From assembly GCA_030527795.1 (NCBI GenBank), contig JAUNAB010000001.1, forward strand, positions 134,856 to 198,855: DNA of 64,000 bases, read 5' to 3'. Position numbers and translations under genes: made by a program. Positions 9,874-18,135 of this stretch are shown one piece after another (position 1 is the first letter of the stretch; the number at the start of each line of letters is the position of its first letter). Source of the DNA: Pasteurellaceae bacterium. Lineage in GTDB: Bacteria > Pseudomonadota > Gammaproteobacteria > Enterobacterales > Pasteurellaceae. The notes under the pieces are model-generated. The model saw only the letters and a program-made list of their open reading frames with translations. It did no database searches and was not told the DNA's origin.

Positions 9874-10461
9874 ATGCAAAATTTGAACGTAATTCATCCT
9901 TTATTTCATTATTTGCCTGAGCTTGGAGAGGAATTCCCAATTTTTGAGCAACGAATTAGTGCGTTGGCGCGGGGAATGCAGCTTGAATTAAATCATTACG
10001 AAATTGATCATCTTGCTTTGCGTGTAAATAATTTGCAAAGATCGAAAATTTGGCTGACAGCGTTCTTAAAGTGCGGTAAAATTCTGAGCGATAATATGGT
10101 CAATGGGCGAGTTATTTATTTAATTCAGTTAGTTGAACCATTAGTTTTTTTAGGGCAAAAGATTGATATTATTGAATTGCCTTTGCCTAAAAATAAACAA
10201 TATCCACAACAAACTTGGGAACATATTGAGGTGGTTATGCCATTTTTGCCGAATGAATCGACAGAGCAATGGCTACAACGCATCGAAAATCAATTTTTGT
10301 GGGGAGAATTATCATCTTTAGCAGTTAAAGTGAGTGTACCAAAGGTAGTGGGAGAATTATTTCCCAATCCGTCTGTTGCCGTAAGTTTAAAAGAGCAATC
10401 AAATAATCATACGACAATTAAAGTGCACCCATTTAATATAAAAAAAGTAATTGAGGTTTAG
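9874..10461 (+). CDS. yecM: YecM family protein (VOC-like fold)
   Basis: A 195-residue protein similar to E. coli YecM, whose fold belongs to the vicinal oxygen chelate group and is suspected to bind metal. Conserved stretches include HYEIDHLALRVNN near residues 48-60, which supplies a His, and the segment KIDIIELPLPKNKQY. The Glu and His residues are consistent with metal binding, but activity is unknown. An exact classical Hin USS, AAGTGCGGT, lies within the gene at 10068-10076. The lipoprotein gene downstream starts five bases past its stop. Confidence 0.85.
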   Translation: MQNLNVIHPLFHYLPELGEEFPIFEQRISALARGMQLELNHYEIDHLALRVNNLQRSKIWLTAFLKCGKILSDNMVNGRVIYLIQLVEPLVFLGQKIDIIELPLPKNKQYPQQTWEHIEVVMPFLPNESTEQWLQRIENQFLWGELSSLAVKVSVPKVVGELFPNPSVAVSLKEQSNNHTTIKVHPFNIKKVIEV

Positions 10462-10465
10462 CGAA

Positions 10466-10783
10466 ATGAAAAAAATTACCTTAGCATTAGCCATATTAAT
10501 GAGCTTAGGTTTAACAGCTTGTGCAAAGCAAGCGCAAGATAATTCTTATAAAGGTGAGATTTTGTTTAGCCAATATGAAGGCGATAACTTAAAATTAACT
10601 ATTCGTAAGAATAATTGTGAACGTAAAGATGGTGAAGTGGAAAGTGTCACTTTAACACATAATTATGATTCCAACTTACCTGTAGGTGCTTGTGTAAATG
10701 TATCTGATGATGGTAACGGTATGAAAAATGTTTCAAGAACCGTTTCAAGATCCTGGTTATCAAGAACTGGGGTTTCTCAATAA
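10466..10783 (+). CDS. Small lipoprotein, apparent Pcp/SlyB paralogue without the glycine zipper
   Basis: A 105-residue lipoprotein with signal MKKITLALAILMSLGLTAC, almost identical to that of the next gene in both protein and DNA. The mature part (LKLTIRKNN, then VTLTHNYDSNLPVGACVNV) aligns loosely with the C-terminal domain of the Pcp-like protein downstream (LELVIKKDD, VVVQKYDASFVKGARVRIV). It lacks the Gly-rich double membrane segment. It looks like a tandem duplicate that has lost or replaced the middle. The start at 10466 is preferred over 10451 because the signal peptide begins there. Function unknown; outer-membrane location inferred from the lipobox. Confidence 0.7.
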   Translation: MKKITLALAILMSLGLTACAKQAQDNSYKGEILFSQYEGDNLKLTIRKNNCERKDGEVESVTLTHNYDSNLPVGACVNVSDDGNGMKNVSRTVSRSWLSRTGVSQ

Positions 10784-10808
10784 TCACTTTTTAGAGGGTT
10801 AGTTTAGT

Positions 10809-11270
10809 ATGAAAAAAATCACATTAGCATTAGCCATTATTGTTAGCTTAGGTGTGACTGGTTGTGCAAATACAGACATTTATAGCGGTGATGTTTACAC
10901 GGGAGCTCAAGCTAAAGAAGCACGTTCAATTAGCTATGGGACAATCGTGTCGACAAGAGCAGTAAAAATTCAAGCAGATAACCAAGGTGTCATTGGTTCT
11001 GTTGGTGGTGGTGCGCTTGGTGGCATTGCTGGTTCGGCAATTGGCGGTGGTACAGGTCAAGCAATCGCAACAGCCATTGGTGCAATTGCTGGTGCTGTAG
11101 TTGGTAGCACAATTGAAGAAAAAGCAAGTCAAGTTAATGCTTTAGAACTTGTTATCAAAAAAGATGATGGCAAAGAAATTGTCGTTGTACAAAAATATGA
11201 TGCAAGCTTTGTTAAAGGCGCAAGAGTCCGTATTGTTGGCGGTTCAACGCTGAATGTGTCAGTACTATAA
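10809..11270 (+). CDS. pcp: Outer membrane lipoprotein Pcp/SlyB (glycine zipper family)
   Basis: A 153-residue lipoprotein with signal MKKITLALAIIVSLGVTGC, lipidated at Cys19. Residues about 63-103 form the glycine-zipper double helix (GSVGGGALGGIAGSAIGGG and AIATAIGAIAGAVVG) diagnostic of the SlyB/Pcp family. A small C-terminal beta domain follows. In Haemophilus this is the 15 kDa peptidoglycan-associated lipoprotein; in enterobacteria SlyB stabilises the outer membrane under stress. It starts 25 bases after the short paralogue, so the two probably share a transcript that ends in the terminator at 11287-11316. Confidence 0.92.
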   Translation: MKKITLALAIIVSLGVTGCANTDIYSGDVYTGAQAKEARSISYGTIVSTRAVKIQADNQGVIGSVGGGALGGIAGSAIGGGTGQAIATAIGAIAGAVVGSTIEEKASQVNALELVIKKDDGKEIVVVQKYDASFVKGARVRIVGGSTLNVSVL

Positions 11271-15653: not shown

Positions 15654-16346
15654 ATGAAAAAATATTTTGCAGAATTTTTCGGAACATTCTGGCTTGTCTT
15701 TGGTGGTTGAGGTAGTGCGGTATTAGCTGCAGGCATTCCTGATCTCGGTATTGGTTATATGGGCGTATCGCTTGCCTTTGGTTTAACGGTATTAACGATG
15801 GCGTATGCAGTAGGGCATATTTCAGGCGGACATTTTAACCCTGCTGTATCAATTGGATTAATGGTTGGCGGTCGTTTTAGCTCAAAAGAACTTTTTCCTT
15901 ATATCATTTCACAAGTAGCGGGTGGTATCGTTGCTGCAGCTGTTCTTTACGTGATTGCATCGGGTGCAGCAAATTTTGACGTCACTGCTGGTTTTGCGAG
16001 CAATGGTTATGGCGAACATTCTCCACACGGTTATAGCCTTGTAGCGGCGTTAGTCATTGAAATCGTTTTAACCGCGTTCTTCTTAATGATTATTATGGGT
16101 GCAACGGATAAACGTGCGCCAGCAGGTTTTGCACCGATTGCTATTGGATTAGCTTTAACTTTAATCCATTTAATCAGCATTCCTGTAACTAACACGTCAG
16201 TTAACCCTGTACGTTCTACTGCGGTTGCGATTTTCCAAGGTAGCTGGGCGATTGAGCAGCTTTGGTTATTCTGGGTTGCCCCAATTATTGGTGGTATCAT
16301 CGGTGGTGTGGATTACAAAGCATTGTTCTCTAACGAAGACAAATAA
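15654..16346 (+). pseudogene. aqpZ: Aquaporin Z with in-frame TGA at codon 19
   Basis: The frame from the ATG at 15654 encodes a full-length AqpZ water channel of about 230 residues, with one TGA at 15708-15710. The sequence before it is MKKYFAEFFGTFWLVFGG and after it [10 protein letters not shown]; the family has Cys at the missing position ([11 protein letters not shown] in E. coli). A TGT/TGC to TGA change therefore explains it. The rest of the frame is intact, with both NPA boxes (HFNPAVSIG, and SVNPVRS in altered form) and GGHF/NTSVNP regions. AAGGA precedes the ATG. A restart at 15759 would lose most of helix 1. It could be a recent null allele, a read-through gene or a base-call error. 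Confidence 0.88.
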
Positions 16347-16362
16347 GCTCACTAAAAGCAAA

Positions 16363-16393
16363 AAAATGCAACGGATTTCCGTTGCATTTTTTT
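16363..16393 (+). terminator. Terminator after aqpZ
   Basis: Perfect arms AAAATGCAACGG (16363-16374) and CCGTTGCATTTT (16379-16390), loop ATTT, then T. It is the start of the first ~65 bp direct repeat copy. Confidence 0.85.
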
Positions 16394-16428
16394 ATTTGAA
16401 AAACGATAAAATTTTTGACCGCAGTTTT
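16363..16428 (+). repeat. Direct repeat, copy 1 (terminator plus degenerate USS)
   Basis: This 66-base stretch is repeated at 17015-17079 with about six differences. It contains a complete terminator hairpin, the shared middle ATTTGAAAAACGATAAAA, and a USS-like end TTTTTGACCGCAGTTTT. The two copies flank the elaA pseudogene. Confidence 0.85.
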
Positions 16429-16504
16429 GTATAATAAAACGATAGTGATAATTTAGAGTATTAATCTCTAAGCCATATATTTTAAGCCTATTGGAGAATT
16501 TAGG

Positions 16505-16936
16505 ATGTGGAGTATTAAGCATTTTTCATAGTTAACAATTGATGAACTTTTCCTTATTTATGAAGCTCGTATAAATGTATTTGTGGTTGAGCAACATTGC
16601 CCTTATGCCGATATATCTAGTTTAGACAAAATAGCTATTCATATATTTAAAATAGAGCAGGGACAAATACAGGCGTATTGTCGCCTTATCCCAGAAACCC
16701 ATAAAATAAAATTAGGGCGAGTTTTGGTTAATGAAGCATATCGGCAATTAGGTTTAGGGCGACAAATTGTTGATAAAGCACTAGATTATTGTCAGGAAAA
16801 CTATCCTAATCTTCCTATTTTTGCCCAAGCCCAAGCGTATTTAGAGAATTTTTATATGACATTTGGGTTTAAAGCAATCTTTGAGGGCTATTTAGAAGAT
16901 AACATTCCCCATATTGATATGCTAAAAGAAGCGTAA
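16505..16936 (+). pseudogene. elaA: ElaA-like GNAT acetyltransferase with in-frame TAG at codon 9
   Basis: Reading from the ATG at 16505 gives MWSIKHFS, a TAG at 16529-16531, then LTIDELFLIYEARINVFVVEQ and the whole remaining ElaA-type domain. The hallmark FVVEQHCPYADIS is at about residues 25-37, the acetyl-CoA loop VNEAYRQLGLGRQIVDKAL at about 78-96, and the end IPHIDMLKEA. E. coli ElaA has the same order and length (about 150). A CAG/GAG/AAG to TAG change would explain the stop. The longest uninterrupted reading starts at a GTG at 16583, lacks the first strand and helix, and has no good ribosome site. The substrate of ElaA is unknown. Confidence 0.82.
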
Positions 16937-17014
16937 TTTGTGAGATTAAAAATGAGTTATTCCTATTTTTAAGACAGCTTCATGAAAGAATTAGTCATAG
17001 AGATTCAAAGAAAT

Positions 17015-17079
17015 AAAATGCAACGGATTCCCGTTGCATTTTTTATTTGAAAAACGATAAAAATTTTGACTTCGGTTTT
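17015..17079 (+). repeat. Direct repeat, copy 2 (bidirectional terminator)
   Basis: Second copy of the element at 16363-16428. The hairpin AAAATGCAACGG-ATTC-CCGTTGCATTTT is intact, and the final USS has decayed further (GACTTCGGTTTT). It ends exactly at the stop codon of sohB, so it probably terminates both elaA and sohB transcripts. Confidence 0.85.
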
Positions 17080-18135
17080 TTACAGGAGTTGGTGGTCGTT
17101 ACGTTTTAACCATTTCAGCAGTAAATTATCCGCACTTTCTTCCGCTTGTTTACTGAGCTTTTGCGTTAAAGATTTTTTGATAATGTATTTCACATTGATC
17201 ACCCGTTTTTCTTGCAACGCGTGCAGAATAACATCATCGCTGGTGCCAATTTCATCAACTAAATGTAGATCTAAGGCTTGCTGACCAAACCAATGTTCGC
17301 CAGTGGCGACTTGATCAAGATCAAGCTGAGAGCGGTGTTGGCTGACAAAATTTTTAAATAGTTGATGGGTTTCTTCTAATTCTTGTTGGAATTTTTGTTT
17401 TCCTTTTTCCGTATTTTCACCTAATAGGGTAACGGTGCGTTTAAATTCGCCCGCAGTCATTACGTCTACATCCACATCGTGTTTTTTCAATAAGCGATGG
17501 ATATTTGGCACTTGTGCAACCACGCCGATAGAACCAATGATCGCGAAAGGGGCGCTGATAATTTTATCTGCAACACAAGCCATCATATAACCGCCACTGG
17601 CAGCGACTTTATCAATTACAACGGTCAGTTTAATGCCTTTTTGTTTTAGACGAGCTAATTGAGATGCTGCTAATCCGTAGCCGTGAACCACACCGCCAGG
17701 GCTTTCTAAACGTAACAAAACTTCATCTTCAGGCTTGGCTACGGCTAAAATCGCGTTGAGTTCTTGGCTCAAGGCAGCAGTTTGTGATGCCATAATATCG
17801 CCTTTAAAATCAATTACATATAAGCTAGGCTTGCTCGTTTCAGTAATCGCTTCGCCTTTCTTTAAACGCATTTTTTCTTGCTTAGATTTGGCTTTTTCCG
17901 CTTTTTTCTCCGCTTTATGTTGAGCTTTCAGTTCTTCTTCACTTAAATGAAAATCATGCAATTTCTGAACATTTTCTTCATATTGTTCACTTAAATCCGT
18001 GAGTTGTAATTCGCCTTGGTTAGACTTGCGTTGCTTTAATACTGCGATAAGAGCAACGATTGCCGCGATGGCTAATAAAATCGTCAGTAGTTCTAAAATA
18101 AAAATGCCATAGCCGACTAAAAGTTCAGACCACAT
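17080..18135 (-). CDS. sohB: Inner membrane serine protease SohB
   Basis: A 351-residue member of peptidase family S49. An N-terminal membrane helix (about residues 8-33) is followed by a charged Lys/Glu-rich linker (70-95) and the protease domain. The Ser of VAASGGYMMACVAD is at residue 180 and the general-base Lys of AGEFKRTVTLLGEN at 232, as in the SohB/SppA Ser-Lys dyad. The active site faces the periplasm in this family. The frame extends to 18234, but MWSELLVGYG at 18135, preceded by GGGAG, matches the E. coli start. A USS sits upstream near 18223. Confidence 0.95.
   Translation of the reverse strand: MWSELLVGYGIFILELLTILLAIAAIVALIAVLKQRKSNQGELQLTDLSEQYEENVQKLHDFHLSEEELKAQHKAEKKAEKAKSKQEKMRLKKGEAITETSKPSLYVIDFKGDIMASQTAALSQELNAILAVAKPEDEVLLRLESPGGVVHGYGLAASQLARLKQKGIKLTVVIDKVAASGGYMMACVADKIISAPFAIIGSIGVVAQVPNIHRLLKKHDVDVDVMTAGEFKRTVTLLGENTEKGKQKFQQELEETHQLFKNFVSQHRSQLDLDQVATGEHWFGQQALDLHLVDEIGTSDDVILHALQEKRVINVKYIIKKSLTQKLSKQAEESADNLLLKWLKRNDHQLL

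Follow-up and report, generated by a model that had tools for sequence, protein, structure and literature searches.

A displaced elaA-like gene between two terminator-USS modules and a candidate third USS dialect in a Pasteurellaceae genome

In the Pasteurellaceae genome G000, an elaA-like gene lies in the spacer of the convergent genes aqpZ and sohB and is enclosed by two direct repeats, each consisting of a terminator hairpin and a USS. The explanation favoured here has two layers and is given a probability of about 0.75: elaA would have been put in at a terminator-USS module, and the USS of this genome would belong to a third dialect, accompanied by an altered ComN.

Genome and comparison set

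The genome comprises 1,945,414 bases in 24 contigs, and all results on the dialect and the locus come from this single genome. The window, i.e., the whole stretch of 64,000 nucleotides which was analysed, has a G+C content of 38.6%. A search of the genus returned only G000, and 139 other Pasteurellaceae genomes, one per species, were used for comparison. The assignment to the family is based on named relatives and on SohB. In a SohB tree of 38 rows, G000 was placed in the Hin subclade (support 98/95), with Avibacterium, Aggregatibacter, Rodentibacter and Pasteurella as neighbours. The sohB sequences of two records named Neisseria (L095, L096) grouped inside the Apl-side Pasteurellaceae, which is due to either transfer or contamination. 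Elsewhere in the window (10451-11270), two tandem small lipoprotein-like genes are 82% identical over 62 bases at their starts.

The repeat pair

The first-pass annotation had described two direct repeats around elaA, made of a terminator and a decaying USS. The repeats are real: local alignment of both copies (Table 1) gave 77 columns with 88.3% identity, eight mismatches and one gap, and a score of 106, while the best of 300 shuffles of the region of copy 2 reached 32. About six differences had been reported for the narrower limits 16363-16428 and 17015-17079, and the recount gave exactly six, namely a loop base (T/C), an indel of one T, an AT-tract base (T/A) and three bases in the USS core. 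In both copies a T run comes after a stable stem-loop, as in a predicted intrinsic terminator. Each hairpin is accompanied by A and T runs, which flank that of copy 1 on either side. A scan with a terminator consensus listed copy 2 for either strand, but copy 1 just for the minus strand.

The USS had been read as a decayed H. influenzae type, which it is not: the three core bases had been scored against the H. influenzae core. Compared with the local dialect described below, the core departs at one base in copy 1 and at two in copy 2. Since these departures fall at different positions in the two copies, the duplicated module most likely carried an intact USS, from which both copies would have drifted since.

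Table 1. Features of the aqpZ-sohB interval (window coordinates)
Feature	Position	Strand	Evidence or remark
aqpZ (aquaporin Z), in-frame TGA at 15708-15710	15654..16346	+	NF003838, 343 bits (part after the TGA); MIP, PF00230
Repeat copy 1, terminator hairpin and USS half	16355..16431	+	local alignment, hairpin fold
Hairpin of copy 1	16360..16393	.	perfect arms of 16 bp; -19.1 kcal/mol, z -5.5
USS of copy 1, core AAACTGCGGTC	16399..16428	-	core departs from the local dialect AAACCGCGGTC at one base
elaA-like GNAT acetyltransferase gene, in-frame TAG at 16529-16531 (codon 9)	16505..16936	+	PF13673, NF007644
Repeat copy 2, terminator hairpin and USS half; its end coincides with the stop codon of sohB	17007..17082	+	local alignment
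Terminator-like bidirectional hairpin of copy 2	17015..17042	.	-16.3 kcal/mol, z -5.1; found on both strands
USS of copy 2, core AAACCGAAGTC	17050..17079	-	core departs from the local dialect AAACCGCGGTC at two bases
sohB (S49 protease), convergent to aqpZ and elaA	17080..18135	-	NF008745, 514 bits

Copy 1 begins 8 bases after the aqpZ stop codon, and copy 2 ends with the stop codon of sohB (17080-17082). Either copy alone would be a complete spacer for the convergent pair, and without one repeat and elaA the sequence would be a plain convergent aqpZ-terminator-sohB junction.

A search for the repeat elsewhere in the genome had been proposed and separated its two halves. The hairpin half occurs at two sites only in G000 and in none of the 139 other Pasteurellaceae genomes, so it is no genome-wide terminator, and a reading as dispersed repeat is ruled out. 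The USS half is widespread: the repeat used as query gave 69 matches in G000, mostly to the USS part (query positions 45-74). The hairpin motif GCAACGG/CCGTTGC was absent from the 7 aqpZ and 41 sohB downstream stretches of relatives examined. Among 29 elaA downstream stretches it was found in one (L163), in an apparent coding stretch and with no hairpin.

elaA and its neighbours

The interval had been said to hold only elaA. It does contain a single gene-sized frame, but this frame is broken by a TAG. The open frame after the TAG starts at the GTG at 16583. The product has a GNAT domain (PF13673, E-value 6e-14, 52.5 bits, cut-off 23.6), and its sole NCBIfam match is NF007644 with 112.8 bits, below the cut-off of 171. 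The residues at the position of the TAG in 29 relatives are Q (12), E (12), N (3), A (1) and Y (1), i.e., Q or E in 24 of 29; four further rows of this alignment are loci of G000 itself and were not counted among the relatives.

The distribution of elaA in the family is patchy, with the gene present in 53 of 140 genomes and in 21 of 43 genera, and holC lies shortly upstream of it in the loci of 23 of the 29 relatives. In G000, holC (PF04364) is followed by an ASCH-domain gene, a DUF6847 gene and a putative valS-like gene, and there is no elaA at this place. None of the loci examined in other genomes has aqpZ, elaA and sohB together, or elaA with either of the two. The best matches of elaA, with about 52% protein identity, are in an Apl-type genus, and Hin-type genomes are close behind. 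With the terminator of aqpZ in front of it and holC elsewhere, elaA in G000 may have lost its promoter.

The in-frame TGA of aqpZ is codon 19, at which nine of nine relatives (seven orthologues and two distant paralogues) have Cys. DNA identity of aqpZ is 77-79% to five Apl-type genomes (G001, G009, G010, G025, G031) and 70-73% to four Hin-type genomes (G007, G023, G033, G035). Because aqpZ is thus nearer to the Apl-type genomes although sohB belongs to the Hin subclade, a transfer of aqpZ across dialects is possible.

A candidate third USS dialect

The sequence AAACCGCGGTC is present in 618 copies in G000 (307 forward, 311 reverse), the reversed control in none. Each of the 139 other family genomes has at most 6 copies. 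Genome-wide, G000 contains 7 copies of the longer Hin form and 9 of the longer Apl form. Among the 9-mers of the window which are not simple, the most frequent derive from AAACCGCGGTCAAAAA; AAGTGCGGT (Hin) occurs in the window twice and ACAAGCGGT (Apl) not at all.

Enrichment was determined against a fourth-order Markov expectation in a sample of 458 kb of G000 (21 pieces). In this sample, ACCGCGGTC was seen 246 times (27.7 expected, 8.9-fold). The Hin form AAGTGCGGT (9 seen, 9.3 expected) and the Apl form ACAAGCGGT (8 seen, 10.7 expected) are at background, and 171 of the 397 NNNNNGCGGTC sites have AAACC. The motif built from 178 sites reads AAACCGCGGTC with A-rich positions 11-16, a purine at 23 and T-rich positions 24-29, and its AT tracts have the spacing seen in 151 Hin sites, which were taken from 19 named loci. 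The G000 motif has the features of a USS, i.e., GCGG in a core of 9-10 bases, hundreds of copies and two downstream AT tracts.

In 133 of the 139 other genomes, the Hin or the Apl form has at least 38 copies. The remaining genomes (G011, G024, G098-G101) have at most 16 copies of either form, and no NNNNNGCGGT form stood out in samples of such neither-type genomes (167, 100 and 100 kb). A search for AAACCGCGGTCAAAAAW in viral contigs gave 0 matches.

These counts and the shared architecture suggest that AAACCGCGGTC with its two AT tracts is a third Pasteurellaceae USS dialect, with a putative function in uptake. In the lineage of G000, within the Hin subclade, it would have replaced the Hin type, and its presumed role is to tag self DNA which an altered ComN receptor would take up.

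ComN, the predicted receptor

In the text available, PMC12616744 proposes ComN/PpdA as the USS receptor and distinguishes two dialects. In the model given there, dialect bases 3-5 lie close to three elements, namely the C-terminal sheet, the C-terminal loop and an Arg-Asn motif (R131 in H. influenzae). In G000, comNOPQ-recC are open frames with a dialect USS upstream. ComN is a prepilin-like protein of 170 aa with six Cys after the leader region and one in the N-terminal helix, and matches NF007800 with 54.5 bits, below the cut-off of 158.

The ComN alignment comprised 70 sequences from the 137 genomes with a match. Residue 126 lies 7 positions before a Cys, like R131 and C138 of PMC12616744. 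It is Gln in G000, Arg in all 47 Hin-type genomes aligned and in the five aligned of the six neither-type genomes; the 17 Apl-type genomes all have Ala, Ser or Thr. In the β5-β6 loop, G000 has Gln-Lys instead of the Arg-Asn motif of the Hin types, and the C-terminal loop is one residue longer than in 47 of 47 Hin types. Conserved columns broken in G000 number 4 of 6 in the two predicted contact loops versus 6 of 39 elsewhere (Fisher's Exact Test, p = 0.016, post hoc). An ordinary Hin genome without a new dialect (G023) also breaks 10 conserved columns. The ComN of one neither-type genome (G024) has an in-frame TAA.

In the ComN tree, calculated without one over-long row (L220), G000 sits on a long branch and its placement is weakly supported (80/25). 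Position 126 tracks both dialect and tree, and dialect and phylogeny are confounded apart from the one switch in G000. A match of the G000 receptor to AAACCGCGGTC is what we infer from these residues. A lineage of the Hin subclade may have switched from AAAGTGCGGTC to AAACCGCGGTC, with ComN changing to match and the tags being rewritten genome-wide; this is put forward tentatively, at somewhat less than even odds. The two changed bases would be among those which also separate Hin from Apl, and the ComN side of the switch would consist of Arg131 to Gln (H. influenzae numbering) and the extra residue of the C-terminal loop. The core is palindromic, so that the orientation of uptake would then rest on bases outside ACCGCGGT, chiefly on the AT tracts.

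Origin of the locus

Insertion or deletion of a gene by homology at a terminator had been suggested for the elaA interval. This is partly supported: the repeat is specific to the locus, and the elaA between its copies is displaced and patchily distributed, so that insertion of elaA at a duplicated terminator appears likely. Neither of the two results which the first-pass annotation had named as refutations was found. In the starting state, convergent aqpZ and sohB would have shared one short spacer, in which a bidirectional terminator was joined to a USS. Recombination at this terminator-USS module would then have brought elaA, severed from its holC neighbour, into the spacer and, in the same event, duplicated the module. 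Behind a terminator, elaA would later have gathered its nonsense codon. This order of events, and the role of the module as a recombination seam, are our reconstruction. The further proposal that elaA is a loss-prone module gains indirect support from the nonsense codon already present in the gene.

Other loci of G000 have related arrangements. In L198 (9722-10036 and 13486-13624), the 3' end of dgkA and a USS pair are copied beside the terminator of another gene: the terminator-USS module of a sucrose-type PTS gene is followed by the copy of the dgkA 3' end and then by a second, similar terminator-USS. The copy is 95% identical to the real dgkA end over 140 bp and lies 3.7 kb from it. In L186 (12838-13244), a tandem array of units of about 90 bp has a dialect USS in each unit. 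The spacing of tandem or near-tandem USS-terminators is about 91 bp in L186, 93 bp in L202 and 143 bp in L188. From these four loci it is concluded that terminator-USS modules have been copied locally in G000, possibly by natural transformation or by replication slippage.

Alternative explanations

Such tandem and near-tandem USS-terminators (L186, L202, L188) would fit a history in which slippage first duplicated the module in tandem and elaA entered later; a related possibility is an elaA old at this place, with one terminator overwritten by the other through gene conversion. Neither course would require that elaA was inserted by homology at a terminator. We consider this unlikely, as elaA is missing from its usual place between holC and valS, and hence moved or arrived at some time, and fits exactly between both module copies. 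That a mobile element (insertion sequence, cassette or phage) carried elaA, with the repeats as its ends or as target duplications, might be supposed from a single out-of-place gene between direct repeats. The interval, however, contains no second gene-sized frame as candidate for a transposase or integrase, and no inverted repeats other than the hairpins themselves. The repeats are terminators plus USS, far above the usual length of target duplications, and the hairpin is not dispersed. This origin is therefore largely refuted and extremely improbable. The stop codons of aqpZ and elaA could also be sequencing errors or be recoded, leaving both genes working, with the TGA possibly read as selenocysteine. 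G000 does encode SelB (704 bits, above cut-off), and the remainder of both frames is conserved. Downstream of the aqpZ TGA, however, no SECIS-like or otherwise notable fold was found (z 0.26), and the elaA TAG replaces the predominant Gln or Glu of the relatives. Working genes are accordingly improbable, and the TGA is probably a nonsense mutation, with selenocysteine as the less probable reading.

As to the dialect, AAACCGCGGTC might instead act as a terminator element or a regulatory site, or be a palindromic repeat of another kind, and have spread in a genome which has lost its USS. Its distribution in the window gives some reason for this: 14 of the 21 exact sites lie outside frames of at least 100 codons, though such frames cover 90%, and four opposed pairs at about 30 bp resemble terminators. 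Yet the remaining 7 sites are inside genes, the strand counts are equal, and known USS double as terminators as well, according to the available text of PMC12616744. Moreover, the motif keeps GCGG, C10 and the spacing of purine and AT tracts of known USS and all its departures from them fall at positions which also distinguish Hin from Apl. A repeat unrelated to uptake therefore deserves little credence, and a third USS dialect remains the preferred reading.

Comparison with known uptake sequences

Since 2006, the whole family has been described with two USS types. The survey of that year (PMC1626085), in the part available, did not exclude further diverged specificities. In 2025, PMC12616744 reported in its available text that one or the other of two dialects is enriched in all 150 genomes, and that the coevolution signal is hard to part from phylogeny, to which the dialects adhere. 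No description of a third dialect was found in the literature covered, which consisted mostly of titles and the starts of abstracts and did not include subscription journals and preprints. A text search with the motif letters gave no title on DNA uptake among the matches listed, and a search with ACCGCGGT and "DNA uptake" gave matches on Neisseria and Streptococcus by title. The dialect is thus apparently undescribed. Nested in the Hin subclade and accompanied by a divergent ComN residue, it would provide an independent contrast by which the receptor question becomes directly testable.

The Hin USS (AAGTGCGGT; Haemophilus and relatives) and the G000 motif share the GCGG inner core, GCGGTC and the equal spacing of the AT tracts, as well as hundreds of copies on both strands and inverted pairs at gene ends. 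They differ at positions 3-4, which are CC in G000 instead of GT, whereby ACCGCGGT becomes a perfect palindrome. With the Apl USS (ACAAGCGGT), G000 shares the architecture and the inner core, whereas positions 2-4 are ACC in G000 and CAA in Apl, copies of which are at background in G000. Neisseriaceae DUS, of which eight dialects are described as cited in the available text of PMC12616744, likewise combine a conserved inner core with lineage-variable outer bases and a minor-pilin receptor, but have another motif and another receptor, ComP.

Intrinsic terminators based on USS or DUS resemble the module of the elaA locus in that an uptake sequence stands at gene ends together with a terminator. 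In the module, however, a non-USS hairpin is the predicted terminator and a single USS follows, and all of it occurs twice, once on either side of a single gene. The elaA locus would be a further example of terminator-USS modules which may act as seams for recombination.
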